This document shows positions 1 to 15,820 of a stretch of 64,000 nucleotides of DNA, in pieces. The stretch comes from Erwinia sp. JUb26 (GTDB lineage Bacteria; Pseudomonadota; Gammaproteobacteria; Enterobacterales; Enterobacteriaceae), in NCBI RefSeq assembly GCF_003751505.1, contig NZ_RJVB01000001.1, positions 746,027 to 810,026 of the forward strand, in the 5' to 3' direction. Under the pieces are notes generated by a model. The model was not told where the DNA came from. It ran no database searches and was given only the letters and a program-made list of their open reading frames with translations. Positions within the stretch are counted from its first letter, which is position 1. Every line of letters starts with the position of its first letter. Position numbers and translations under genes: made by a program.

Positions 1-634
1 TCACCGTGTCGTAATCGTCAAACTCCGCCAGTTCCGGCTTCAGCAGGCGGCTGGCGCTGGCGTACACTTCCACCGGCTCCTCCCCCAGCAGCCAGCGGGC
101 CATATCGAAGTCGTGGATCACCATATCGCGGAAAATCCCGCCGGAATGGCGCAGGTAGTCCATGGGGGCAAAATCCGGATCCCGGCTGGTAATCACCACC
201 TGATGCAGTTCACCAATTTCCCCGTTGGCAATGGCCTGCTGCAGCTCGCTGGCGCTGGGGTCGAAGCGGCGGTTAAAGGCCACCATGACCGGCGCGTTAA
301 TTTCCTCAAGCTGACGGCAGGCGTCGGCGGCACGCGTTAAATCCAGATCGACCGGTTTTTCGCACAGGACTTTTTTTCCCTGCCGCGCGGCGGCCAGCAT
401 CAAATCAACGTGGGTATCGGTGGGCGTGGCAATAATGACCGCATCGATATCATCGTCATTAATTAATTCCAGCGGATCGGATACGGCTTTTGCACCGTAT
501 AACTCCGCCAGCGCGTTGGCGCTGTTAATAAAAGGATCCGCCACCGCCGCCAGCGATGCCTGCGGGTGATTCGCGATATTTGCGGCGTGGATTTTCCCGA
601 TGCGACCAGCACCGAGCACGGCTATTTTCAACAT
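1..634 (-). CDS. iolG: Inositol 2-dehydrogenase, partial (runs off left edge)
   Basis: The first 211 codons of a Gfo/Idh/MocA oxidoreductase are visible; the C-terminus lies outside the window. The family enzyme oxidises myo-inositol to scyllo-inosose with NAD+, the first step of inositol catabolism. Seen: Rossmann motif GAGRIG at residues 8-13, CEKPVD at 91-96 with the family's catalytic Lys93, NRRFDP at 121-126, and DMVIHDFD at 170-177, which supplies the Asp/His catalytic residues. The ATG follows CAGGAACTGACT, a good ribosome site. It is last of four minus-strand genes, 44 bases after the hydroxyacid dehydrogenase. The link to inositol comes from iolD and iolE nearby; on sequence alone another polyol is possible. 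Confidence 0.85.
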   Translation of the reverse strand, partial: MLKIAVLGAGRIGKIHAANIANHPQASLAAVADPFINSANALAELYGAKAVSDPLELINDDDIDAVIIATPTDTHVDLMLAAARQGKKVLCEKPVDLDLTRAADACRQLEEINAPVMVAFNRRFDPSASELQQAIANGEIGELHQVVITSRDPDFAPMDYLRHSGGIFRDMVIHDFDMARWLLGEEPVEVYASASRLLKPELAEFDDYDTV

Positions 635-678
635 AGTCAGTTCCTGTAGAGGACGGGTAAGTTATTATTCGCCAGCCG

Positions 679-1659
679 TTATATAGCGTGCGCGTTATTT
701 ATCTGTCGGCAATTAACAATTAATTTTTCGTCCAGTTCGCCGGTGAAATAATGAATAATATTATTCACGGCGGAAACCGACATGCGCATCGCCGCCTCTT
801 CGGTCAGCCCTGCGGAGTGCGGGCTGAGGATCAGGCGATAAGAGGCGTGCAGCAGCGCCGAGTCGCGCGGCGGTGGTTCCTGACTGAAAACATCCAGCCC
901 CGCGCCGCCCAGGCGGTCGTTCTTCAGCGCGTCGATCAGCGCCTGTTCATCAACAATCCCGCCGCGTGCCGTGTTGATGACAATCGCCTGCGGCTTAAGC
1001 AGCGCCAGTTCGCGGCGGCCAATCAGCGGCTTACTGTCGCTGAGCGGCAGATGCACGGTCAGCGCATCGGCGATTTTTAGCCCGGCCTCCAGTTCAGTAA
1101 TCCGCTCCACGCCGAGGGCATGGAAGATTTCATCGGCGACGTAAGGATCGTAGGCCACCACGAACATATTGAAGCAGCGCGCCATTCTCGCCACTTCGCG
1201 CCCGATGCGGCCAAAGCCCAGCACGAACAGCGTGCGCCCCGACAGCTCCATCGCCGAGAAGCTGTTGCGGCAGTTCCAGTTACCGCTGCGCAGGTTTTCA
1301 TCGTAAACCCGCACCTGTTTCGCTACCGCCATCAGCAGTGCGAAGGTGTGTTCCGCCACGGACAGCGAGTTCACATCGCCAACGATGGTCAGCGGAATGC
1401 CGCGCTGGTTCAGCGCCGCCACGTCAACCGCGTCATAGCCCACGCCGTGGCGGGACACCACCTTCAGCCGGGGAGCCTGAGCGATCTCGGTGGCGGTCAG
1501 CGGCTGGGTGCGCAGCAGCAGCGCATCGGCATGTTCGATCAACGGCGCATAGCTGGCGGTACTCACCTCTTTCACCAGCTCATAGGTAAAACCCGGGGCG
1601 TTTTGCAGAATCGTCAGCCCGGCCTGATGAATACTTCCGGCAATCAGTACGTGCGGCAT
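679..1659 (-). CDS. D-2-hydroxyacid dehydrogenase family protein
   Basis: 326 residues, normal length for NAD(P)-dependent D-2-hydroxyacid dehydrogenases (phosphoglycerate/glyoxylate dehydrogenase fold). Seen: NAD-binding GFGRIG at 148-153; the catalytic Arg in NTARGGIVDE near 235, Glu in GLDVFSQEPP near 264, and His in SPHSAG near 283. Its start lies one base after the stop of the aldolase gene, so the two are probably translated together. Family knowledge predicts reversible reduction of a 2-keto acid. With an aldolase that releases pyruvate or a 2-keto acid next door, it may reduce a keto-acid product, but the real substrate cannot be read from sequence. Confidence 0.85.
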   Translation of the reverse strand: MPHVLIAGSIHQAGLTILQNAPGFTYELVKEVSTASYAPLIEHADALLLRTQPLTATEIAQAPRLKVVSRHGVGYDAVDVAALNQRGIPLTIVGDVNSLSVAEHTFALLMAVAKQVRVYDENLRSGNWNCRNSFSAMELSGRTLFVLGFGRIGREVARMARCFNMFVVAYDPYVADEIFHALGVERITELEAGLKIADALTVHLPLSDSKPLIGRRELALLKPQAIVINTARGGIVDEQALIDALKNDRLGGAGLDVFSQEPPPRDSALLHASYRLILSPHSAGLTEEAAMRMSVSAVNNIIHYFTGELDEKLIVNCRQINNAHAI

Positions 1660-1660
1660 C

Positions 1661-2473
1661 TTAGTATCCTCCCTGCTGGCCGTTAGCCTGCGGCGCAGCG
1701 CCGGTCAGCTGACGGAAACGCGTGGCGCTGGCCGCCGCCGCACCGCGCAGCAGCTGCACATCGTTAGAAACGGTGACCAGGTCGAAGCCCCACTCCACCG
1801 CCCGTGCGGCGTACTCCGGGCTGCCGTTGTGCAGACCCGCGCGGATCCCGGCGGCGTGCGCCCGATCGAGGATATGGCGGATGGCGTCGATAATCTCCGG
1901 CTCTTCGCGGTCAAAACCGGTACGGTAGCGGCGGCCGGTCAGCGCCAGGGTCAAATCTGCCGGGCCGATGTAAATCCCATCCAGCCCCGGGGTGCGTACG
2001 ATCTCTTCGATTTTTTCCACCGCTTCGGCGGTTTCAATCATCGCAAAACACACCACTTCGCTGTCCGCGTGCTGGCCGTAATCCTGCCCCGCGGCGAAGG
2101 TGACGCGCGTCGGGCCGAAACTGCGGGAGCCGAGCGGCGGGTAGCGTACGCAGGACACCAGCTGCCGGGCTTCCTCGCCGTTGTTGATCATCGGGCAGAT
2201 AATGCCGTACGCCCCGGCGTCCAGCGCCTTCATAATGTCGCCCGGCGACAGCCAGGGCACGCGCACCATCGGGGTCACGCCGCTGGCGCGCATCGCCTGC
2301 AGCATGGTGGTGGCCGTGTCAAAACCCACCAGGCCGTGCTGGATGTCGATGGTCAGCGCGTCGTAGCCCTGCGCCGCCATAATCTCAGCGGTAAACGGGC
2401 TGGCAACCGACAGCCAGCCGTTCAGCACGCTGTGCCCTTCTGCCCATAAACGCTTCACGTTGCTGTTGATCAT
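1661..2473 (-). CDS. HpcH/HpaI-family aldolase
   Basis: 270 residues, in the range of class II pyruvate aldolases such as GarL, HpaI and RhmA. Seen: the IDIQHG segment near residue 44 (the family's D-x-x-H active-site region), AMIETAEAVEKI near 150 carrying the metal-binding Glu, and GIYIGPADLTLALTG near 175 with the second metal ligand Asp. The ATG follows TAAGGAAACCGCA. It sits 10 bases after the aldehyde dehydrogenase stop and one base before the hydroxyacid dehydrogenase start, so it is mid-operon. It probably splits a 2-keto-3-deoxy acid into pyruvate and an aldehyde; the aldehyde could feed the dehydrogenase encoded upstream. Substrate assignment is inference. Confidence 0.88.
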   Translation of the reverse strand: MINSNVKRLWAEGHSVLNGWLSVASPFTAEIMAAQGYDALTIDIQHGLVGFDTATTMLQAMRASGVTPMVRVPWLSPGDIMKALDAGAYGIICPMINNGEEARQLVSCVRYPPLGSRSFGPTRVTFAAGQDYGQHADSEVVCFAMIETAEAVEKIEEIVRTPGLDGIYIGPADLTLALTGRRYRTGFDREEPEIIDAIRHILDRAHAAGIRAGLHNGSPEYAARAVEWGFDLVTVSNDVQLLRGAAAASATRFRQLTGAAPQANGQQGGY

Positions 2474-2483
2474 TGCGGTTTCC

Positions 2484-3917
2484 TTACAGGACCACCTGCG
2501 TCAGTTTGACATTCATATATTCGTAAATACCTTCGGCACCGCCTTCGCTGCCCATGCCGCTGGCCTTAATACCGCCAAACGGCACGTCGGCCGAGGCCAG
2601 CGCAAAGCTGTTGATGCCGACCATGCCCGCCTGCAACTGCTGCGAGACGCGGCGAATTCGCGCTGCATCGCGGGTAAAGGCATAGGCGGAGAGCGCCAGC
2701 TCGCTGCGGTTCACCCGGGCGATAACCTCGGCTTCGTCAGTAAAGGTGGTGATGGCGGCGATCGGGCCGAAGTTCTCCTCGGCCAGCGCCAGCGCATCGT
2801 CCGGCACATCGGCCAGTACGGTGGGCGCAAACCAGAAACCCGGTTTATCGGCAATGCGCTGCCCGCCGGTGATTACGCGAGCGCCTTTCTGCCGCGCATC
2901 CTCGACGATGCCTTCAATCGCCTTCAGCCGCCGCAGGTTAATCAGCGGCCCCATTTCACTGCCTTCATCCAGCCCGTAACCGACCCGAATGGCCGCTGCA
3001 CGACGAGCGAATCCATCGATAAAGGCCTGCGCTACCGACTCATGAACATAGAAGCGATCGGCGGTGACGCACACCTGGCCGCAGTTGGCGAACTTGGTTG
3101 GCACCGCCAGGTCCAGCGCTTTTTCGATATCCGCATCCTCAAAGACGATCATCGGCGCGTTGCCGCCCAGCTCCATGCTCACCCGTTTGAGGGTGGCGGC
3201 CGAATCGCGGATCATCTGCTGACCAATGGCCGTGGAGCCGGTCAGCGTCACTTTGCGTACCACCGGCGATTCAATCAGCGGCTGATAGGTATTCGCCGTT
3301 GGCCCGACCACCATATTGACCACGCCCGCCGGCAGCCCGGCCTTTTGCAGGCAGGTCATGATGACCATGGCCGATCCGGGCACTTCGCTGGAGGGGCGCA
3401 GCACCACGGTGCAGCCCGCCGCCAGCGCCGGAGCCAGCTTGCGGGCAATCAGCACCACCGGGAAGTTCCACGCGGTAAAGGCCGCCACCACGCCGACGGC
3501 CTGATGAGAGACCTCACAGCGCCCGCCCGGCACGCGGCTTTCGACGATGCGACCGTACACGCGGCGCGCCTCTTCGGCGTACCAGGTGAACTGATCGATA
3601 GCCAGCGTCCATTCGCGGCTGGCCTGCGCCAGCGGCTTGCCGCTCTCCAAAGAGATGGTGCGTGCCGCCTGCTCGCGGGCCAGTTCCATTTCCGCTGCAA
3701 CGCGGTGCAGCGTATCGGCGCGCTCCCACGCTGCCCGCGCCTGCCACTGTGCCAGCGCCGCTTCCGCGCTGGCTATCGCTTCCAGCGTATCCTCGCGGGA
3801 GGCAGCAACGATCTCGCCCAGCTGCTCATCGCGGCCCGGATCGGTGACCACGATGGTTTCGCCACTGCTGCCCTGACGCCAGCCGCCGTTAATAAACTGC
3901 CCGTAGTCGTTATACAT
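2484..3917 (-). CDS. NAD(P)-dependent aldehyde dehydrogenase, succinate-semialdehyde dehydrogenase type
   Basis: 477 residues from the chosen ATG, the length of GabD/SSADH-like enzymes. Seen: AFTAWNFPV near 150 (cofactor-binding Asn), GSTAIGQQM (nucleotide loop), the catalytic Glu in ELGGNAP near 250 and the catalytic Cys in NCGQVC near 284. An ATG nine codons further upstream is open, but the start at 3917 has AGGACCAGTT directly before it and gives the usual N-terminus. First gene of the minus-strand operon with the aldolase, hydroxyacid dehydrogenase and iolG. It lacks the look of methylmalonate-semialdehyde dehydrogenase (IolA), so it is not the standard last enzyme of the inositol pathway. 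Confidence 0.88.
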   Translation of the reverse strand: MYNDYGQFINGGWRQGSSGETIVVTDPGRDEQLGEIVAASREDTLEAIASAEAALAQWQARAAWERADTLHRVAAEMELAREQAARTISLESGKPLAQASREWTLAIDQFTWYAEEARRVYGRIVESRVPGGRCEVSHQAVGVVAAFTAWNFPVVLIARKLAPALAAGCTVVLRPSSEVPGSAMVIMTCLQKAGLPAGVVNMVVGPTANTYQPLIESPVVRKVTLTGSTAIGQQMIRDSAATLKRVSMELGGNAPMIVFEDADIEKALDLAVPTKFANCGQVCVTADRFYVHESVAQAFIDGFARRAAAIRVGYGLDEGSEMGPLINLRRLKAIEGIVEDARQKGARVITGGQRIADKPGFWFAPTVLADVPDDALALAEENFGPIAAITTFTDEAEVIARVNRSELALSAYAFTRDAARIRRVSQQLQAGMVGINSFALASADVPFGGIKASGMGSEGGAEGIYEYMNVKLTQVVL

Positions 3918-4028
3918 AACTGGTCCTGTTTTCCTGCCGCTCAACGCGGGAGCGGGATGTTAATTCGGCGGAAGCTAGCTGACCTCTCTCCGCCACCGGT
4001 TATTAACTTAATTGCAAGTAAGAAATAA

Positions 4029-4254
4029 ATGCAATAAAAATTGCATGGCCGGTTTCAGCCTTAAAGCCACCGGTTTTTACATCAGAAGAAACATACCAAC
4101 CGTATGATTTTTAATAATTTAATAGTTAGTAAAACCGTTTTTGAGAGAGAGATTCCAGGGTTTTACGTCGGGAATGAAATGCAGAACTTCTGAAGCAGAT
4201 CACGCTTTTAGAAATTTCAATTGCAATGAAAATTGTAATGCAATTTTAGTTGCG
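4029..4254. promoter_or_regulatory. Candidate operators of the RpiR-type regulator in the divergent promoter region
   Basis: The 370-base gap between the aldehyde dehydrogenase operon and the regulator is AT-rich. It holds a perfect inverted repeat, ATGCAAT-AAAA-ATTGCAT at 4029-4046. Two imperfect copies follow in tandem: TGCAAT-GAAA-ATTGTA at 4222-4237 and TGCAAT-TTTA-GTTGCG at 4239-4254. A related copy precedes iolD. The consensus TGCAAY-N4-RTTGCA is a plausible binding site for the adjacent regulator and would link both divergent transcription units. Seen directly: the repeats. Inferred: the protein that binds them. Confidence 0.6.
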
Positions 4255-4287
4255 ATAGCCTGCAGTCAGAATTAAACGCAAGGACAG

Positions 4288-5232
4288 ATGCCGATGGCCA
4301 GCCGCAAAGAGACAGACAAGAAAGATCTCCCACCGCCGCATAAGAACTATGAGCAGGTGGTGAACGACATTACCGCACGCTATTCGCAGCTGTCGGATCG
4401 TTTCCAGCAGGTGGCGCGATTTATTACGCAAAACCCCAACGCCGTGGCGCTGGAGTCAATCAATGCGATTGCCGCCCGCTGCGCCCTGCACCCTTCCACG
4501 CTGGTGCGCTTTGCCCAGCACTTTGGCTACAGCGGCTTTAAGCAGATGCAGGCGGTGTTTCAGACCCGGCTGGCGACTACCGCCCCAGGTTATAACGAAC
4601 GCATCGTGGCGCTGGAAAACGACCTGCAGAAGAACCAGCAGCAGGGGAATCTCGGGTTTCTGCAGGATCTGGTGGTGCGTGACATCGCCACGCTGCAGGG
4701 CATGCTGGAAAGCGTGACCGCCGCCGATCTTGACTACAGCGCCCAGCTGATGGGCCGCGCCGACACCATTTTTATCGCCGGGCAGCTGCGTTCCGAGCCG
4801 GTGGCCATTTTGCTGCGCTACCTGCTGACGATGCTGAACCGCAAAGTGGTTCTGCTGGATATGTCCGGCGGGCTGGCCCCGCATATGGCGATGAATATGA
4901 CCCCGCGCGACCTGCTGGTTGCCGTCTCCTTCCGCCATTACGCACAGGAAGTGGTTAATATCGCCGAGATCGCCGCCCAGAAAAAAGTGCCGCTGATCGC
5001 CATCACCGACAGCGTCCTGTCGCCGCTGGCAAAAGATGCGCGAGTGCTGTTTACCATCCCGGAAGAGGAATACAGCTTTTCCCGTTCGCTGGCCGCGCCG
5101 GTGTGCCTGGTACAGTGCATCGCGCTGGCGCTGGCCGCCGAACTGCATCCCGAAGAGGAGCAGCCGCGTATTGCCACGCTGACCGAGCGCACGCAGATCC
5201 GCGAAGAGGGGAAGAAAAGCGGTCATAAATAG
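4288..5232 (+). CDS. iolR: MurR/RpiR-family regulator of the inositol cluster
   Basis: 314 residues with the RpiR layout. An N-terminal helix-turn-helix spans about 30-95 (SINAIAARCALHPSTLVRFAQHFGYSGFKQ is split by the two helices). A C-terminal SIS sugar-phosphate-binding domain spans about 140-275, with IFIAGQLRSEP and AITDSVLSPLA as its phosphate-loop segments. ATGs at 4288 and 4294 are both possible; AAGGAC lies before the first. It is divergent from the aldehyde dehydrogenase operon and upstream of iolD, the arrangement typical of enterobacterial inositol regulators, which are de-repressed by a pathway intermediate. The symbol rests on position plus family. Confidence 0.8.
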   Translation: MPMASRKETDKKDLPPPHKNYEQVVNDITARYSQLSDRFQQVARFITQNPNAVALESINAIAARCALHPSTLVRFAQHFGYSGFKQMQAVFQTRLATTAPGYNERIVALENDLQKNQQQGNLGFLQDLVVRDIATLQGMLESVTAADLDYSAQLMGRADTIFIAGQLRSEPVAILLRYLLTMLNRKVVLLDMSGGLAPHMAMNMTPRDLLVAVSFRHYAQEVVNIAEIAAQKKVPLIAITDSVLSPLAKDARVLFTIPEEEYSFSRSLAAPVCLVQCIALALAAELHPEEEQPRIATLTERTQIREEGKKSGHK

Positions 5233-5250
5233 CCGCAGTCCGGTTTAACG

Positions 5251-5268
5251 CTCTCCCTCTGGGGAGAG
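5251..5268 (+). terminator. Short hairpin between iolR and iolD
   Basis: CTCTCCC-TCTG-GGGAGAG forms a perfect 7-bp stem 18 bases after the iolR stop. Only two T residues follow, so it is a weak or partial terminator at best. It could attenuate read-through from iolR into iolD. Confidence 0.4.
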
Positions 5269-5281
5269 TTACGTCCGGATT

Positions 5282-5297
5282 TGCAACTAAAATTGCT
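5282..5297. promoter_or_regulatory. Candidate IolR operator upstream of iolD
   Basis: TGCAAC-TAAA-ATTGCT matches the inverted-repeat pattern seen three times upstream of the regulator gene. It lies 84 bases before the iolD ATG in an AT-rich stretch, as expected for a repressor site over the iolD promoter. Binding is inferred from the shared motif only. Confidence 0.5.
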
Positions 5298-5365
5298 TAT
5301 TTTCATTTTTAGCAAATTTAATTCTATAACCAGCCTGATTACGGGCCCTACAACAGGTAGAAACT

Positions 5366-7210
5366 ATGTCGACCTATCGTTGCACCACTGCACAGGCGGT
5401 GGTCCGTTACCTGAGCAATCAGTTTATCCACGTAGACGGTGAAGACGTGCCGCTTTTCCCCGGCGTGTTCGGCATCTTCGGCCACGGCAACGTCACTTGC
5501 ATCGGTGAAGCGCTGGAAAGCGTGCAGGACGTGCTGCCGACCTGGCGCGGCCAGAATGAGCAGTCAATGGCCTTCGCCGCCGTCGGTTTTGCCAAAGCGC
5601 GCCTGCGCCAGCAGATCATGGTGGTCACCGCCTCTATCGGCCCCGGCACCACTAACCTGCTGACTGCCGCAGGCGTGGCTCACGTCAGCCGTCTGCCGAT
5701 GCTGATGATCTGCGGCGATTCGTTTGCCCGCCGCGTGCCGGATCCGGTCATGCAGCAGGTGGAGCACTTCAGCGACCCCAGCCAGACGGTCAACGACGCC
5801 TTTAAGGCGGTCACCCGCTACTGGGATCGCATCACGTGGCCGGAGCAGATCCTCTCTTCACTGCCGCAGGCGGTGGCAACCATGCTGGATCCGGCGGACT
5901 GCGGTCCGGCCTTTATCGGTCTGTGCCAGGACGTGCAGGAGATGGCCTTTGACTATCCGGAGGCGTTTTTCGCCCGCCGCGTTCACACTATCCCTCGCCC
6001 GCGCCCGGACCAGCAGTTGCTGAAGCAGGCGGCCACGCTGCTGGCTTCCGCCCGGCACCCGCTGATTATCGCCGGGGGCGGCGTGCGCTACTCGCGTGCA
6101 GAGGCCGAGTTGGAAGCGTTCGCTCGCCAGCGCGGTATTCCGGTGGTGGAAACCATCGCCGGGAAAGGCACGCTGACCCACGATCATCCACTGCATATCG
6201 GCCCGGTCGGTATTCTGGGTTCGACCTCCGCCAACGCGCTGGCGGCAAAAGCCGATGTGATTATCGCCATCGGCACCCGACTGATGGACTTTGTCACCGG
6301 CTCCTGGACGGTGTTTTCACCCGAGGCGCGCTTTATTGCCATTAACGCCGCGCGCTTTGATGCCCACAAGCACTTCTCGCTGCCGCTGGTCGCCGATGCC
6401 CGCGAAGGGATCCGCGAACTTAACGCCGCACTCGGCAGCTATGCTGCGGACGCGGACTGGCTGGACAGTGGCAAAACCGCCTTCGCCGCGTGGGATCGGC
6501 TGATCGCCGATCGCCAGCGGCGCACCGTGACCACCGGCGTACCGACCTACGCGCAGGTGGTTGGCGTGGTCAATGAACGCGCCGCTGCCGAAGACTACGC
6601 GATCAGCGCGGCGGGCGGCCTGCCGGGTGAGCTGGTGAAGGGCTGGAAGGTAAAAAATCCCGGCACCTTCGACTGCGAGTTCGGCTTCTCCTGCATGGGC
6701 TATGAAATTTCTGCGGGCTGGGGCGTGGCGATGATGGAACAGGATCGCGACGTGTTTGTGCTGATTGGCGACGGCACCTACATGATGATGAACTCGGACA
6801 TCTATTCCAGCGTGCTTTCCGGCCACAAACTGATCCTGCTGGTGTGCGACAACGGCGGCTACGCGGTGATTAACCGCCTGCAAAACGCCAAGGGCGGCGC
6901 GTCGTTCAACAATCTGCTGAAGGACTGCCGGGTGACCGAGCCGTTCCACGTCGATTTCGTGGCCAACGCGCAGTCGATGGGCGCGCTGGCACGCAAGGTC
7001 GGCAGCCTGGATGAACTGGCCGACGCCGTGGACTGGGCGAAGGGCAACGACCGCACCACGGTGATCTGCATCGATACGCATCCGCACGAATGGACGCCGG
7101 GCGATGCCTGGTGGGACGTGGGCGTGCCGGAAGTCAGCCAGCGCGAGAGCGTGAATCAGGCGCGAGCGGAGCACATTGCAGGCCGTAAAAAACAGCGTAC
7201 AGGTATTTAA
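5366..7210 (+). CDS. iolD: 3D-(3,5/4)-trihydroxycyclohexane-1,2-dione hydrolase
   Basis: 614 residues, close to the family's usual ~620-645. A thiamine-diphosphate enzyme that opens the diketone ring to 5-deoxy-glucuronate in inositol catabolism. Seen: the catalytic Glu in GQNEQSMA near residue 58, a central transhydrogenase-like domain with PLIIAGGGVRYS near 235, and the ThDP/Mg motif GDGTYMMMNS near 470, ending in CDNGGYAVIN. The ATG follows ACAGGTAGAAACT. iolE begins 23 bases downstream, so the two form an operon. A candidate regulator site lies just upstream. Only the left edge could hold iolB and iolC; neither is in the window. Confidence 0.93.
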   Translation: MSTYRCTTAQAVVRYLSNQFIHVDGEDVPLFPGVFGIFGHGNVTCIGEALESVQDVLPTWRGQNEQSMAFAAVGFAKARLRQQIMVVTASIGPGTTNLLTAAGVAHVSRLPMLMICGDSFARRVPDPVMQQVEHFSDPSQTVNDAFKAVTRYWDRITWPEQILSSLPQAVATMLDPADCGPAFIGLCQDVQEMAFDYPEAFFARRVHTIPRPRPDQQLLKQAATLLASARHPLIIAGGGVRYSRAEAELEAFARQRGIPVVETIAGKGTLTHDHPLHIGPVGILGSTSANALAAKADVIIAIGTRLMDFVTGSWTVFSPEARFIAINAARFDAHKHFSLPLVADAREGIRELNAALGSYAADADWLDSGKTAFAAWDRLIADRQRRTVTTGVPTYAQVVGVVNERAAAEDYAISAAGGLPGELVKGWKVKNPGTFDCEFGFSCMGYEISAGWGVAMMEQDRDVFVLIGDGTYMMMNSDIYSSVLSGHKLILLVCDNGGYAVINRLQNAKGGASFNNLLKDCRVTEPFHVDFVANAQSMGALARKVGSLDELADAVDWAKGNDRTTVICIDTHPHEWTPGDAWWDVGVPEVSQRESVNQARAEHIAGRKKQRTGI

Positions 7211-7233
7211 CTTTCAGCCAGAGGAATCAGAAC

Positions 7234-8151
7234 ATGACGTTGCACGCAAAACTGGGTATTGCCCCTATCGCCTGGTCCAACGACGACCTGCCGCAGCTCG
7301 GCGGCGACACGCCGCTTTCCGTCTGCCTGGCCGAAAGCCGGCTGGCGGGTTTTTCCGGCGTAGAAACCGGCGGTAAATTCCCGCGCACCGCCGCTGAACT
7401 GCAGCCGCAGCTGGCGGAGTATCAGCTACAGCTGGTCTCCGGCTGGTACTCCGGCACCCTGCTGGATAACGATCTGGAGAGTGAAATCGCCAAAGCCACG
7501 CCGCAGATGCAGCTGTTTAAGGAGTGCGGTGCGGCCTGCCTGGTGTACGGCGAAACCGCAGGCACCATTCAAAACCAGCAGCAGGTGCCGCTGGGCCAGC
7601 GCCGCAGGCTGACGGAGGAACAGATCCACGAGTACGGCGCGAAGCTTAACCTGTTTGCCAGCTGGTGCCGTGATTTTGGCGTACCGCTGGCCTTCCATCA
7701 TCATATGGGGACGGTGATTGAGGACGAGCGCGATATCGATCTGCTGATGGCGGCTACCGGCCCGCAGGTGGGGCTGCTGTTTGACACCGGGCACCTGGTG
7801 TTTGCCGGGGTCGATCCGCTTAGCGTCCTGAGCAAGCACGGCAAGCGCATCAACCACGTGCATACCAAAGACATCCGTGCGGACGTGCGCGCCGGGCTGG
7901 ACTGGCAGCGCGACTCGTTTCTCGATGCGGTGCTGAAAGGCGTTTACACCGTACCGGGCGACGGCAGCATTGATTTCGATGCGGTGATCTCAAGGCTGGC
8001 CGGCATCGGCTATCAGGGTTGGTTTGTGGTGGAGGCCGAGCAGGATCCGGCGCTGGCCCCGCCGCTGGAATATGCGCGGATTGGCTACGCCAGCCTGACA
8101 TCCTCGCTGACCAAAGCCGGATACGCCATCGATCGTGCCGCGCAGCGCTGA
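7234..8151 (+). CDS. iolE: Myo-inosose-2 dehydratase
   Basis: 305 residues, standard size. TIM-barrel enzyme that dehydrates scyllo-inosose (2-keto-myo-inositol) to the diketone used by IolD. Seen: the N-terminal GIAPIAWSNDDLPQLGGDT typical of IolE, and the metal-ligand segments AFHHHMGT near 150, LLFDTGHLVFAG near 182, NHVHTKDIR near 207 and FVVEAEQDPA near 265. The ATG follows AGAGGAATCAGAAC. Second gene after iolD. With iolG and iolD this gives the first three steps of inositol breakdown inside the window. Confidence 0.93.
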   Translation: MTLHAKLGIAPIAWSNDDLPQLGGDTPLSVCLAESRLAGFSGVETGGKFPRTAAELQPQLAEYQLQLVSGWYSGTLLDNDLESEIAKATPQMQLFKECGAACLVYGETAGTIQNQQQVPLGQRRRLTEEQIHEYGAKLNLFASWCRDFGVPLAFHHHMGTVIEDERDIDLLMAATGPQVGLLFDTGHLVFAGVDPLSVLSKHGKRINHVHTKDIRADVRAGLDWQRDSFLDAVLKGVYTVPGDGSIDFDAVISRLAGIGYQGWFVVEAEQDPALAPPLEYARIGYASLTSSLTKAGYAIDRAAQR

Positions 8152-11617: not shown

Positions 11618-12097
11618 ATGTCCACTCCCGCACACTTATGGCTTGAGGATGAAAATGGTTCCCCGATCATTGGCAGTTGTCTAATGCCACTGCGTCTGGG
11701 CTCAATCGAGTTAAAATCATTTTCCCACGGTGTCACTATTCCCGTTGATCCAAGCTGGGGGAAACTTACAGGTACGCGCGTTCACCGCCCTATTACGATA
11801 GTGAAAGAATTTGATCAGACAACACCTCTCCTGTACCGCGCTGTCTGCGAAGGCCGAACCATGAAGAAGGGTACAATCAAGATGTATCGCATTCTTGAAT
11901 CAGGCGTCGAGGCCGAATATTTCAATATCATTCTGGAAAACGTCAAATTCACAACAGTTGCACCCTATCTGGCTCCTAACGGTATGAGTAGCACTCACCT
12001 TGAAACGCTAGAATTGCGTTACGAGGCGATCGCCTGGAAGTATACGGAAGGAAATATCATCTATCGCGATTCGTGGAACGATCGTTGTTGTGCCTGA
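11618..12097 (+). CDS. hcp: Orphan Hcp-family T6SS tube protein, copy 1
   Basis: 159 residues, full length for the Hcp1 family (type VI secretion inner-tube protein, a hexameric ring that also carries small effectors in its lumen). Seen: AHLWLEDENGSPIIGSC near the start, KSFSHGVTIPVD near 33 and the C-terminal half with LETLELRYEAIAWKY. ATG preceded by AAGGAAATTAT. About 92% identical by eye to the copy at 24567. No other T6SS genes (tssB, tssC, vgrG, clpV) are in the window, so it must work with an apparatus encoded elsewhere, if one exists. It follows the effector/immunity-like pair in the same orientation. Confidence 0.88.
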   Translation: MSTPAHLWLEDENGSPIIGSCLMPLRLGSIELKSFSHGVTIPVDPSWGKLTGTRVHRPITIVKEFDQTTPLLYRAVCEGRTMKKGTIKMYRILESGVEAEYFNIILENVKFTTVAPYLAPNGMSSTHLETLELRYEAIAWKYTEGNIIYRDSWNDRCCA

Positions 12098-12328: not shown

Positions 12329-13570
12329 ATGGTTTCTTCACTTACCGCTGGAAACGGTTCGCGGCAGCAGCATGTGATGCTGGTTCCACGGCTGTCATTA
12401 ATGATGTTTTTACAGTTCTTCATCTGGGGAACCTGGTCGGTCACGCTCGGCCTGGTGATGACCCAGCATAATCTCGGCAGCATCATCGGCGATGCCTTCT
12501 CCGCCGGGCCGATAGCCTCGATCCTCTCACCGTTTGTACTGGGGATGGTGGTTGACCGCTTCTTCCCGTCGCAGAAGGTGGTGGCGCTGCTGCACCTGGC
12601 CGGTGCGGTCATTCTGTGGTTCGTCCCGCAGGCGCTGCTGGCCGAGAACGGCTCGCTGCTGATCGCCCTGCTGTTTGCCTACACGCTGTGCTATATGCCG
12701 ACCCTGGCGCTGACCAACAACATCGCCTTCCACAGCCTGAGCAACAGCGAGAAAAGCTTCCCGGTGGTGCGGGTGTTCGGCACCATCGGCTGGATCGTGG
12801 CCGGGATCTGTATCGGCGTCAGCGGCATTGCCGCCAGCACCGATATCTTCCGCCTCGCCGCCGTCTTCTCTGCGGTGCTCGCCGCCTACAGCCTGACGCT
12901 GCCGCACACCCCTGCTCCGGCCAAAGGTCAGCCGTTTGCCCTGCGCGATCTGCTGTGCGCCGACGCGTTCGCGCTGCTGAAGAAAAGCCACTTCCTGATC
13001 TTCGCCATCTGCGCCACGCTGATCTCTATCCCGTTGGGCACCTATTACGCCTTTACCGCGTCGTTCCTCTCCGACGTGGGTATTGCGGACGTCAGTACCG
13101 CGATGTCGTTCGGCCAGATGTCCGAAATCTTCTTTATGCTGATTATCCCGCTGCTGTTCCGTCGGCTGGGCGTGAAGTACATGCTGCTGATCGGCATGGC
13201 GGGCTGGTTCGTGCGCTACGCGCTGTTTGCCTTCGGCGTCAATGAAGAGACCCGCTGGCTGCTGTATATCGGCATCCTGCTGCACGGCGTGTGTTACGAC
13301 TTCTTCTTTGTTATCGGCTTTATCTACACCGACCGCATCGCCGGTAGCCAGGTAAAAGGCCAGGCGCAGAGCCTGATCGTGATGTTCACCTACGGCATCG
13401 GCATGCTGCTGGGGTCGCAGATTTCCGGCGCGCTGTACAACCAGTTAATCAACCACGGCGGCGTACATCAGCCGGAAAACTGGACCACGTTCTGGCTGAT
13501 CCCGGCGGTTGCCGCCGCGGTTATCGCGGTCATATTCCTCTTCACCTTCAAGTACAAAGAGCAGGAATAG
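12329..13570 (+). CDS. MFS transporter, nucleoside:H+ symporter (NupG/XapB) family
   Basis: 413 residues with about twelve membrane segments. MFLQFFIWGTWSVTLG near residue 25 is the family's first helix, and the 12-helix layout ends in FTFKYKEQE. The ATG follows AGGAAGGGGTCTGACG. First gene of a three-gene operon with a TIM-barrel isomerase and a Gfo/Idh/MocA oxidoreductase. Such members usually carry sugars or sugar derivatives, so a glycoside or polyol is more likely here than a nucleoside. A twin operator covers the promoter region. Substrate unknown. Confidence 0.85.
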   Translation: MVSSLTAGNGSRQQHVMLVPRLSLMMFLQFFIWGTWSVTLGLVMTQHNLGSIIGDAFSAGPIASILSPFVLGMVVDRFFPSQKVVALLHLAGAVILWFVPQALLAENGSLLIALLFAYTLCYMPTLALTNNIAFHSLSNSEKSFPVVRVFGTIGWIVAGICIGVSGIAASTDIFRLAAVFSAVLAAYSLTLPHTPAPAKGQPFALRDLLCADAFALLKKSHFLIFAICATLISIPLGTYYAFTASFLSDVGIADVSTAMSFGQMSEIFFMLIIPLLFRRLGVKYMLLIGMAGWFVRYALFAFGVNEETRWLLYIGILLHGVCYDFFFVIGFIYTDRIAGSQVKGQAQSLIVMFTYGIGMLLGSQISGALYNQLINHGGVHQPENWTTFWLIPAVAAAVIAVIFLFTFKYKEQE

Positions 13571-13596
13571 TTTTTGATCAACTTCAGGAGTAAGCA

Positions 13597-14670
13597 ATGA
13601 AAACGTTAAAAGGGCCTGGCCTGTTTTTGTCCCAGTTCATCGGTGATATGCCACCGTTTAATACCCTGGAAAACCTCGCCAGATGGGCGTCGGGGCTGGG
13701 TTTCCGGGCGTTGCAGATCCCCTGTAATCATCCAACGATATTTGATGTGGAAAAGGCCGCCAGCAGCCAGGCCTACTGTGATGACATCACCGCGCTGCTG
13801 GCGCGCTACGGGCTGGTGATTAGCGAACTGTCCACCCACCTTGAAGGGCAGCTACTGGCGGTGCATCCCGCCTACGAACTGGCGTTTCGTGACTTCGCCC
13901 CGGCGGCGCTTCGTGACGATCCAGCAGCGCGTCAGCGGTGGGCGGCGGAGAAGATCCAGCAGGCGGCAGCCGCCTCGGAAAAGCTGGGGCTAAAATCCCA
14001 TGCCACCTTCTCCGGCGCGCTGGCCTGGCCGTACTTTTATCCGTGGCCGCCGCGCAAAGAGGCGTTGATCGATGCCGCCTTTAATGAGCTGGCCGCCCGC
14101 TGGAAGCCGATTCTCGACTGCTTCGATCGCCACGGCGTCGACGTATGCTACGAGCTGCATCCGTCGGAGGATTTGCACGACGGGGTTACCTTCGACCGCT
14201 TCCTCGCGGCGGTCGACCATCATCCTCGCTGCAATATTCTGTTCGATCCCAGCCATATGCTGCTGCAGCAGATGGACTACCTGACCTTTATCGACCTCTA
14301 CCACACGCGCATTAAAGCGTTCCACGTGAAGGATGCCGAGTTCACACCTTCCGGGCGCAGCGGGGTTTACGGCGGCTATCAGCCGTGGAGCGAACGGCCA
14401 GGACGCTTCCGCTCGCCGGGCGACGGTCAGATCGATTTCAAAGGCATTTTCAGCCGGCTGGCGCAGTACGACTATGACGGCTGGGCGGTCCTGGAATGGG
14501 AATGCTGCCTGAAGGAGGCGGAAAGCGGCGCGCGGGAAGGCGCGAAGTTTATCGCCGAACATATTATTCCGGTGTCCGCGCGGGCGTTTGATGACTTCGC
14601 CGCCACCGGCAGCGAGGACGACAGCATCCGCACCATGCTGGGGCTAAATCCGGAGTCAAAAAATGATTAA
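13597..14670 (+). CDS. Sugar phosphate isomerase/epimerase family TIM-barrel protein
   Basis: 357 residues, AP-endonuclease-2-like TIM barrel. Metal-ligand segments visible: CYELHPSEDLHDG near residue 184, LFDPSHMLLQQ near 215, AFHVKDAEF near 246 and AVLEWECC near 299. ATG preceded by CAGGAGTAAGCA. Its end overlaps the next gene by 8 bases, so the two are translated together. Family members isomerise or dehydrate keto-sugars; several work beside Gfo/Idh/MocA oxidoreductases that make 3-keto sugars. The precise substrate is not deducible. Confidence 0.85.
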   Translation: MKTLKGPGLFLSQFIGDMPPFNTLENLARWASGLGFRALQIPCNHPTIFDVEKAASSQAYCDDITALLARYGLVISELSTHLEGQLLAVHPAYELAFRDFAPAALRDDPAARQRWAAEKIQQAAAASEKLGLKSHATFSGALAWPYFYPWPPRKEALIDAAFNELAARWKPILDCFDRHGVDVCYELHPSEDLHDGVTFDRFLAAVDHHPRCNILFDPSHMLLQQMDYLTFIDLYHTRIKAFHVKDAEFTPSGRSGVYGGYQPWSERPGRFRSPGDGQIDFKGIFSRLAQYDYDGWAVLEWECCLKEAESGAREGAKFIAEHIIPVSARAFDDFAATGSEDDSIRTMLGLNPESKND

Positions 14671-15820
14671 GGCGGCGATTATCGGCTCGGGCTTTATCGG
14701 CCCGGCGCATCTTGAAGCCATCCGCCGCCTGGGATTTGTGGAGGTGGTGGCCATCTGCGACAGCTCGCTGGACAAAGCGCAGGAGAAGGCGCGGCAGCTT
14801 AACGTGCCCCACGCCTATGCCGATGTGGCGGAACTGTTGCGCCACGACGGGCTTCAGGTGGTGCATAACTGCACCCCCAATCATCTGCACGCGGCGATCA
14901 ATCGTCAGGTGCTGGCGGCGGGTAAGCATCTGTTTTCCGAAAAGCCGCTGTGCATGACCGGCGAGGAGGCGCGCGAGTTAGTGAAACTGGCGGAGGCGTC
15001 CGGCGTGGTGCACGGGGTGAGCTTTGTCTATCGCCAGTTCGCTATGGTGCAGCAGGCCGCCAGCCTGATCCGTCAGCAGCAGGCCGGCAAGGTATTTGCC
15101 GTACACGGCAGCTACCTGCAGGACTGGATGCTGTACGACAGCGATTTCAACTGGCGCGTGTCGGCAACCCAGGGCGGCGCATCACGAGCGGTGGCGGATA
15201 TCGGCTCCCACTGGTGCGATACGCTGCAGTTCGTGACCGGGCGGCGCATCAGCGCGGTGATGGCCGACTTTTCTATCGTTCATCCGGTTCGTCGGGTGGC
15301 GCGCGGGGCCGCGACGACCTTTGCCGCAGCCGAAGAGAACGGCGAATTCGATGAGGTGTCCGTGGATACCGAAGATTTTGCGTCGATTCTGCTGCGCTTC
15401 GACGACGGCAGCCGGGGCAGCCTGACGGTTTCACAGGTCAGCGCCGGGCGCAAAAACCGGCTGGCGTTTGAGGTGAACGCCAGCGAGATGTCGATAGCCT
15501 GGGATCAGGAAGTACCGCAGCAGCTGTGGCTGGGGCATCGCGACCGCCCGAACCAGATGCTGAGTGACGATCCTTCGCTGGTAAACCGCGACGTGGCCGC
15601 CGCCGTACACTTCCCCGGAGGCCATATTGAAGGCTGGCCGGACGCGTTTAAGAATATGATGCTGAACTATTACCGCTTTATTCAACAGGGTAAACGCCCT
15701 GGCTTAGATGCGGCCGACTTCGCCACCTTCCATGAAGGGGCCAGCGTGCTGCTGATCGTGGAAGCGATGCTGCAGAGCCATCAGCAGCAGCGCTGGGTTG
15801 AGGTGGCAACGCTGGCGTAA
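14663..15820 (+). CDS. Gfo/Idh/MocA family oxidoreductase
   Basis: 385 residues. Rossmann motif GSGFIGPAHL near residue 8, FSEKPLC near 92 with the catalytic Lys, and the sheet domain with ADIGSHWCD near 178, whose Asp/His pair is catalytic. Starts inside the end of the isomerase gene (8-base overlap) and closes the operon, followed by a strong hairpin. Likely an NAD(P)-dependent sugar or polyol dehydrogenase acting with its two operon partners on an imported sugar. Confidence 0.87.
   Translation: MIKAAIIGSGFIGPAHLEAIRRLGFVEVVAICDSSLDKAQEKARQLNVPHAYADVAELLRHDGLQVVHNCTPNHLHAAINRQVLAAGKHLFSEKPLCMTGEEARELVKLAEASGVVHGVSFVYRQFAMVQQAASLIRQQQAGKVFAVHGSYLQDWMLYDSDFNWRVSATQGGASRAVADIGSHWCDTLQFVTGRRISAVMADFSIVHPVRRVARGAATTFAAAEENGEFDEVSVDTEDFASILLRFDDGSRGSLTVSQVSAGRKNRLAFEVNASEMSIAWDQEVPQQLWLGHRDRPNQMLSDDPSLVNRDVAAAVHFPGGHIEGWPDAFKNMMLNYYRFIQQGKRPGLDAADFATFHEGASVLLIVEAMLQSHQQQRWVEVATLA

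Follow-up and report, generated by a model that had tools for sequence, protein, structure and literature searches.

The best-described counterpart of the system reported here is the canonical inositol gene set iolABCDEGJ (Bacillus subtilis type), which likewise has an inositol dehydrogenase, an inosose dehydratase, the ring-opening enzyme IolD and malonate semialdehyde as a product. According to the available part of a large genome survey, inositol users were defined by IolB, IolC, IolD and IolE, with three of the four lying within a cluster (PMC9430895). Here, we analyzed a stretch of 64,000 nucleotides from Erwinia sp. JUb26 (referred to as the window, G000:C1:746027-810026, in a genome of 5.37 Mb and 23 contigs), which begins with an inositol locus of another kind. 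We infer the reactions and substrates of this locus from sequence comparison, and on this basis it is probably a second inositol module, the lower half of which works by oxidation and without phosphorylation.

The module consists of two divergent arms, the left one on the minus strand and the right one on the plus strand. The left arm starts with a gene for an NAD(P) aldehyde dehydrogenase (ALDH, PF00171, 2484..3917), proposed as a 5-deoxyglucuronate dehydrogenase; its listed TTG start at 3944 is probably nine codons upstream of the real ATG. It is followed by a gene for an HpcH/HpaI aldolase (PF03328, 1661..2473), proposed to split 2-oxo-5-deoxyglucarate into malonate semialdehyde and hydroxypyruvate, a gene for a D-2-hydroxyacid dehydrogenase (2HADH, PF00389/PF02826, 679..1659), which may act as a 5-deoxyglucarate 2-dehydrogenase and/or a hydroxypyruvate reductase, and iolG2 encoding for inositol 2-dehydrogenase. 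The 5′ part of iolG2 lies in the window (1..634; whole gene L006:17666-18661), and the gaps between the genes of this arm are 10, 1 and 44 bases. Beyond base 1, after iolG, the arm continues with gfo2 (L006:16525-17652), a Gfo/Idh/MocA gene related to levoglucosan dehydrogenase (342.6 bits, cut-off 650). The right arm includes genes for an RpiR/MurR-type regulator with HTH_6 and SIS domains (4288..5232), a trihydroxycyclohexane-1,2-dione hydrolase of a separate subfamily (iolD2, 5366..7210) and an inosose dehydratase (iolE2, 7234..8151), for which the nearest solved structures are IolE 9zmu and 3cny. Among the matches listed, the closest named relative of the locus is that of Pantoea coffeiphila, with an aldolase of 97% identity.

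The initial annotation had named iolG, the RpiR-type regulator, iolD and iolE, and their positions were confirmed; IolG (TIGR04380, 404.5 bits for the full-length protein, cut-off 355), IolD (TIGR04377, 833 bits, cut-off 715) and IolE (TIGR04379, 404.5 bits, cut-off 290) all exceed the curated cut-offs. Its description of an iolG operon with an HpcH/HpaI aldolase, a D-2-hydroxyacid dehydrogenase and an aldehyde dehydrogenase, and without iolA, iolB, iolC or iolJ, was also correct. The aldehyde dehydrogenase had been called succinate-semialdehyde-type: the resemblance stands, while membership in that subfamily does not (489 bits for TIGR01780, cut-off 646), and the identification of ALDH as succinate-semialdehyde dehydrogenase was ruled out. 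The aldolase belongs to the PF03328 family (115 bits, cut-off 25) and falls below the cut-offs of all four matched equivalogs, namely HpaI (156 of 369 bits), PRK10558 (145 of 393), GarL (141 of 407) and RhmA (122 of 441), by which HpaI and GarL were ruled out as its identity. The 2HADH matches models of glyoxylate/hydroxypyruvate reductases, in all cases below the cut-off.

It had been supposed that the standard genes might be found to the left of the window. In the 18 kb preceding base 1, there is no iolA, iolB or iolC, the only iol genes there being iolG and gfo2, and the complete adjoining iolBCA set that would have spoken against an unusual lower half was therefore not found in this interval. 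The canonical set is instead located on contig C5, at about 98–115 kb, where iolB (336.6 bits), the IolC kinase domain (418.3 bits), IolD (961.9 bits) and IolA (645.6 bits), all above the cut-offs, are adjoined by iolE, an iolG and an RpiR gene. These are the single IolB match, the single IolC over the cut-off and the only IolA over the cut-off in the genome, and none of the three was detected at the module. The IolC of C5 is a kinase-aldolase fusion (NF047869, 885.6 bits, cut-off 600), apparently the fusion that, in the available text of PMC9007349, was proposed to hold the missing aldolase. The identity between the module and C5 copies is 39% for IolD, 41% for IolE, 27% for IolG and 34% for the RpiR proteins. 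Because no iolBCA adjoins the module and the canonical set is on another contig, the window locus is a second inositol module rather than a half that was moved away from the canonical cluster. As regards this genome, the suggestion of an "added branch" was thus right.

From these assignments, a pathway can be proposed. First, IolG would oxidize an inositol, IolE would dehydrate the resulting inosose and IolD would open the ring to 5-deoxy-D-glucuronate, as expected from their family membership. Then, ALDH would oxidize C1 to give 5-deoxy-D-glucarate, the C2 hydroxyl of which may be oxidized by 2HADH to a 2-oxo acid, and the HpcH/HpaI aldolase may cleave the C3–C4 bond, releasing malonate semialdehyde and hydroxypyruvate. 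These three steps would bypass isomerization by IolB, phosphorylation by IolC and splitting by IolJ. Malonate semialdehyde could be converted to acetyl-CoA by IolA or, in Komagataeibacter, to acetaldehyde by a malonate semialdehyde decarboxylase, while hydroxypyruvate, or its tautomer tartronate semialdehyde, would be reduced to D-glycerate. By our own stereochemical reasoning, the oxidation of 5-deoxy-D-glucuronate at C1 and C2 should give a (3S,4R)-3,4-dihydroxy-2-oxo acid. The aldarate is R at C2, which would suit a D-specific dehydrogenase, and S at C3, which would suit the aldolase family. In a screen of class II aldolases, 19 of 571 accepted hydroxypyruvate, and the C3 of the product was always S, as stated in the accessible part of the review PMC7610986. 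A 3,4-dihydroxy-2-oxo acid yielding malonate semialdehyde is probably a better candidate for the aldolase substrate than the 2-keto-3-deoxy acids suggested previously.

To assess the recurrence of the module, species genomes were scanned with the aldolase, which gave 247 relatives, and the loci of the best 80 of these were analyzed, with partners counted at no less than 150 bits. In total, iolD was found in 59 of the 80 loci, and 53 of them also carried ALDH, the aldolase and 2HADH; successive addition of iolE, the RpiR gene and iolG left 44, 38 and 29 loci, respectively. The remaining 21 loci lack iolD; among them are short contigs and other settings. Among the 295 genomes of the family, three further genera have close aldolase relatives (74–77%), and the same eight genes are present in each. 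As a control, paralogous aldolases with 41–49% identity were taken from 13 of the 16 weaker places in the family genomes (those in G068, G119 and G207 were left out), and none of these 13 loci, each of 15 kb, held any module partner. Since 53 of the 80 aldolase-fetched loci hold the set versus 0 of the 13 paralogue loci, the gene arrangement is not due to chance.

The carriers include Enterobacterales, Halomonas, Marinobacterium, Caballeronia, rhizobia, Rhodobacteraceae and acetic acid bacteria. In the IolD tree, which, like the aldolase tree, was obtained by a quick search with SH-aLRT as the sole support measure, 53 rows of module IolDs group together (SH-aLRT 100), and the program warned of long branches meeting between the canonical group of the enterobacteria and that of the module. 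Row L135 is labelled as a module sequence and actually holds the canonical copy. The canonical group has 32 rows, of which 23 are labelled "modlike" for their higher score with the window IolD than with that of C5, yet the tree places them outside the module group. Split iolD genes were noted in K. intermedius (L134) and Roseobacter (L140). Halomonas and Marinobacterium were placed among the alphaproteobacteria, as lateral transfer would give. The aldolase tree did not cleanly separate module and non-module aldolases, with 11 changes of label. The module is also carried by conjugative-typed plasmids of Klebsiella aerogenes and K. pneumoniae, as well as by Pantoea plasmids. On the K. aerogenes plasmid, ABC transporter genes accompany the module, and an IolA-type gene with 56% identity to the C5 IolA lies about 7 kb from gfo2. 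At about 18.8–56 kb of this plasmid (NZ_CP042531.1; about 62 of 215 kb read), genes for a PQQ-dependent membrane dehydrogenase and PEP synthase and a gallate degradation set were also observed alongside the IolA-type gene. Behind the module, the acetic acid bacteria (L129, L132, L134, L143 and L148) repeatedly carry genes for a VOC glyoxalase-family protein, another Gfo protein and a sugar porter.

Comparative support for a different lower half comes from carriers in which the canonical one is missing. Of 50 module genomes (49 of the 59 iolD loci plus L117), 39 have IolB over the cut-off, one has a weak match and ten have no match: Cedecea colo, Acidocella aminolytica, Beijerinckia mobilis, Halomonas salipaludis, Acetobacter senegalensis, A. 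malorum and four Komagataeibacter species. These ten genomes were searched for IolC, and none has it over the cut-off, although the same search found other sugar kinases in all ten. Nine of them hold exactly one IolD at E values up to 1e-180, and in the tenth, K. intermedius, the module iolD is split into two overlapping frames. An assembly effect is unlikely to explain why ten draft assemblies lack IolB, IolC and a second IolD together. The earlier idea that ring-opened inositol is handled by a different aldolase route is therefore well supported by comparison.

The genome of Pseudogemmobacter bohemicus (L136) has a single IolD, which is of the module type. On its left, on the same strand, there are iolE, short-chain dehydrogenase (SDR), TIM-barrel and Gfo genes and an iolC-J fusion, with iolB 6 kb away, and on its right, there are iolG, ALDH, the aldolase, 2HADH and gfo2. 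The position of this single IolD between both halves argues that the module IolD makes the same 5-deoxyglucuronate, and the two lower halves appear to share one intermediate. Six genomes (G312, G316, G321, G337, G338 and G341) contain a divergent IolB-like family (139–196 bits, below the cut-off), and in four of them (G312, G337, G338 and G341) the gene lies about 1.1 kb from an iolD copy, which perhaps represents another inositol variant. An IolB-like gene was also seen in L133 beside aldolase, 2HADH and Gfo genes.

The neighbouring genes also bear on malonate semialdehyde as a product of the aldolase. IolA is present over the cut-off in six of the ten IolB-less genomes and in none of the four Komagataeibacter. 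All four Komagataeibacter have a tautomerase-family gene in the fetched locus, at the end of the gene run started by ALDH, behind gfo2 and a sugar porter. The nearest solved structure of the L148 protein (PF14552) is malonate semialdehyde decarboxylase 2aag (158 bits), and the other three proteins are at least 95% like it or belong to its cluster. Pro1, Asp37, Arg73 and Arg75, which we take to be the catalytic residues of this decarboxylase, are kept in the L148 protein, as counted by eye. The absence of IolA in Komagataeibacter was at one time considered as evidence against malonate semialdehyde, and this objection was dropped given the decarboxylase in the fetched loci. Thus, the decarboxylase was found in four of four loci from genomes without IolA versus none of six with IolA (Fisher p 0.005; fetched loci only and not whole genomes, the four being of one genus). 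IolA itself occurs in eight of the 80 loci, six with module genes (L074, L075, L089, L090, L101 and L142) and two without iolD (L110 and L125). IolA and the decarboxylase are unrelated consumers of malonate semialdehyde, and both point to it as a product. The decarboxylase also occurs in two Mesorhizobium loci (L115 and L117). In addition, it follows the aldolase in the rhizobial loci L107 and, with a partial match, L092, which either lack the module or show no more of it than an iolD match of 54%. Of the four loci of a recurrent rhizobial set (L104, L107, L131 and L092), only these two match the decarboxylase. The set comprises genes for a GntR-type regulator, an ABC transporter, a class III aminotransferase, an NAD-dependent epimerase-type protein, an enolase-superfamily dehydratase, a close aldolase relative and an alpha/beta hydrolase; it is possibly a sister route that converts a deoxyuronate to pyruvate and malonate semialdehyde.

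The nearest solved structure of the window aldolase is a hydroxyketoacid aldolase (6r62, 202 bits), ahead of HpaI (129 bits), GarL (124 bits) and RhmA (115 bits). According to the available portion of PMC10099721, 6r62 was crystallized with hydroxypyruvate bound. The metal-binding or catalytic residues Asp43, His46, Arg71, Glu147 and Asp173 are invariant in 77 of 77 relatives. In ALDH, Glu258 and Cys292 (numbered from the TTG start), presumably catalytic, are kept in 57 of 57 rows, and in 2HADH, the same holds for the presumed catalytic residues Arg232, Glu261 and His281 in 60 of 60 rows with a letter at these positions. Hydroxypyruvate as the second product would fit the GlxR-type tartronate semialdehyde reductase encoded inside the Marinobacterium rhizophilum module (69% to E. 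coli GlxR) and another one (55%) beside the aldolase in L108.

A common mode of regulation is indicated by an operator-like palindrome, GCAAYWWWWRTTGC, which matches three times in the window, always in the module, versus 0.03 expected. The sites are located between the two arms (GCAATAAAAATTGC, 4031..4044), just before the regulator gene (GCAATTTTAGTTGC, 4240..4253), with similar places in related loci, and about 70 bases before iolD (GCAACTAAAATTGC, 5283..5296). There are six sites in the whole genome and none for the reversed-pattern control. Of 18 related loci scanned, 16 contain the palindrome (the exceptions being L079 and L082), mostly in the gap between the regulator and ALDH and before iolD; in both Caballeronia loci it precedes the ALDH arm, and in both Marinobacterium loci it lies between iolA and the ALDH arm. 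Probably, the RpiR protein binds this palindrome and controls both arms through it. The fourth genomic site lies 117 bases before an operon on contig C4 (G000:C4:463170-466537; L193:6171-9538), which encodes a sugar-binding protein, a TIM-barrel isomerase-like protein and a Gfo/Idh/MocA protein. The best five relatives of each of these genes (75–89% identical) belong to module loci of other species, where they usually follow the module directly, and together with the palindrome this indicates that the operon is probably a part of the module that moved and kept its operator. The gene lists at the remaining two sites, on C8 and C10, show no evident link to the module. In the window itself, an MFS transporter gene, a TIM-barrel gene and a Gfo/Idh/MocA gene stand in a row at 12329-15820 with no palindrome before them; outside P. 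coffeiphila, this TIM-barrel gene is 55–61% identical to the module-attached one. Two short proteins resembling Hcp-type secretion-system proteins were recognized by eye, one at 11618-12097 of the window and the other at L194:1556-2062.

Several observations weigh against the proposed oxidative route. Phe210 of the Sphingomonas aldolase, which contacts hydroxypyruvate, is replaced by His (His215) in 77 of 77 relatives and by Leu in GarL, so the use of hydroxypyruvate as a donor may be suggested by the nearest solved relative, although the donor preference is not settled by it. D-2-hydroxyacid dehydrogenases often work as reductases. The 80 loci show no GarK/GlxK-type glycerate kinase above 100 bits. 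Eight of the ten module-only genomes have a MOFRL glycerate kinase (C. colo and Beijerinckia mobilis do not), and in all seven genomes with both places listed it is on another contig than the module. The four decarboxylase cases come from one genus and are not independent events. Six of the 59 iolD loci (L084, L092, L105, L127, L144 and L146) have no ALDH at 150 bits or more, and an SDR gene, found in 36 of the 80 loci, is not located beside iolE in the window genome. Finally, the 39 carriers with a canonical IolB allow for another inositol isomer as the substrate, and growth reports for module-only species offer one usable case, which is negative: C. colo did not ferment inositol in API20E, according to a table in the available part of PMC7074957 whose column was assigned by matching sorbitol, sucrose and GC values. 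This result counts against myo-inositol as the substrate, though an oxidative route need not ferment.

The last two points lead to the alternative that survives best, which is compatible with the proposed reactions. The module may serve another cyclitol (chiro-, allo-, neo- or muco-inositol or an O-methyl inositol), the ring-opened epimer of which cannot be used by IolB. This would explain why most carriers keep IolB as well, and it is consistent with the low identity of the module IolD, IolE and IolG to the canonical copies of the same genome, with the recurrence of extra Gfo/Idh/MocA and SDR dehydrogenases and with the C. colo test. On the other hand, all three enzymes pass the cut-offs of myo-inositol equivalogs, and Pseudogemmobacter has its single module-type IolD beside IolB and IolC. 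We regard such an isomer branch as a serious possibility, somewhat short of an even chance.

A reassignment of individual steps seems rather unlikely. In that case, 2HADH would only reduce hydroxypyruvate to D-glycerate, as its reductase-model matches may suggest, and the aldarate would be oxidized by the product of gfo2, a gene found in 44 of the 80 loci. However, gfo2 is present in fewer loci than 2HADH (59 of 80), and the nearest solved relatives of 2HADH are phosphoglycerate dehydrogenases, which are oxidizing enzymes. It is quite improbable that the classical cleavage proceeds here in a non-phosphorylating way, with an isomerase forming 2-deoxy-5-keto-D-gluconate, the aldolase splitting it into malonate semialdehyde and dihydroxyacetone, and the two dehydrogenases serving elsewhere. 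Such a cleavage would yield the malonate semialdehyde implied by the neighbouring genes, and the TIM-barrel isomerase-like gene in 18 of the 80 loci could provide the isomerase, but the two dehydrogenases and the tartronate semialdehyde reductase would be left unexplained. Moreover, in the available parts of PMC7610986 and PMC10099721, the donors of the aldolase family are 2-oxo acids bound bidentately to the metal, and dihydroxyacetone is reported only as an acceptor. Least probable of all, the three enzymes could act on an unrelated sugar acid and be merely co-located with a duplicate iolDEG, as homologous aldolases in other settings (e.g., with an enolase-superfamily dehydratase in rhizobia) and the loci without iolD might suggest, but the association is kept in 53 of 80 loci across families, one motif precedes both arms and carriers without IolB and IolC exist.

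Returning to the oxidative lower half, a more extended proposal can be put forward tentatively, as one that we find more doubtful than the isomer branch. It would comprise a complete, horizontally mobile oxidative route without IolB, IolC and IolJ, which would be the sole inositol route of several acetic acid bacteria. In it, 2HADH would act twice as an internal redox shuttle, oxidizing 5-deoxyglucarate and reducing the released hydroxypyruvate, the exit enzyme would be interchangeable (IolA or the decarboxylase), and the rhizobial dehydratase set, with the decarboxylase in two loci, would be a sister route to pyruvate. If the oxidative lower half proposed for the module is right, a phosphate-free lower half would be added to the textbook pathway, hydroxypyruvate-type HpcH aldolases would obtain a natural role, and malonate semialdehyde decarboxylase would be placed in sugar metabolism. 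The module concerns vinegar and cellulose bacteria (Komagataeibacter and Acetobacter), as well as conjugative-typed Klebsiella plasmids. The survey criterion of PMC9430895, as given in the available text, would pass over genomes with only the oxidative module.

In 5.39 million open-licence papers (preprints and most subscription papers being outside this scope), we failed to find a description of a deoxyglucarate or HpcH route for inositol or of malonate semialdehyde decarboxylase in connection with inositol. Compared with the canonical iolABCDEGJ set, represented here by C5, the module lacks IolB, IolC and IolJ, and it is predicted to use two oxidations and an HpcH/HpaI aldolase, to form no sugar phosphate and to release hydroxypyruvate instead of dihydroxyacetone phosphate. 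The E. coli GarL-GarR-GarK route for D-glucarate and galactarate starts with dehydration and yields pyruvate. As in the proposed pathway, an aldarate is cleaved there by a PF03328 aldolase into two C3 units, with a tartronate semialdehyde reductase downstream, whereas the module lacks the dehydratase of that route, would use a second oxidation instead and has an aldolase only 31% identical to GarL. In the IolC-DUF2090 fusion variant, as far as the accessible text of PMC9007349 describes it, IolJ is likewise replaced by another aldolase, and C5 has a kinase-aldolase fusion of such a kind (assigned by NF047869 and not by a DUF2090 model); this variant still isomerizes and phosphorylates, while the module has genes for neither step. 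The hydroxyketoacid aldolase of Sphingomonas wittichii (6r62; PMC10099721, available in part) is 45% identical to the module aldolase over 241 columns, and Ser116 and the following Phe are common to both, whereas its Phe210 corresponds to His in the module enzyme. The inositol pathway of Anaerostipes (PMC8355322, available in part) likewise provides an alternative fate for inositol carbon, but it is anaerobic and leads to propionate and acetate with a CoA transferase.

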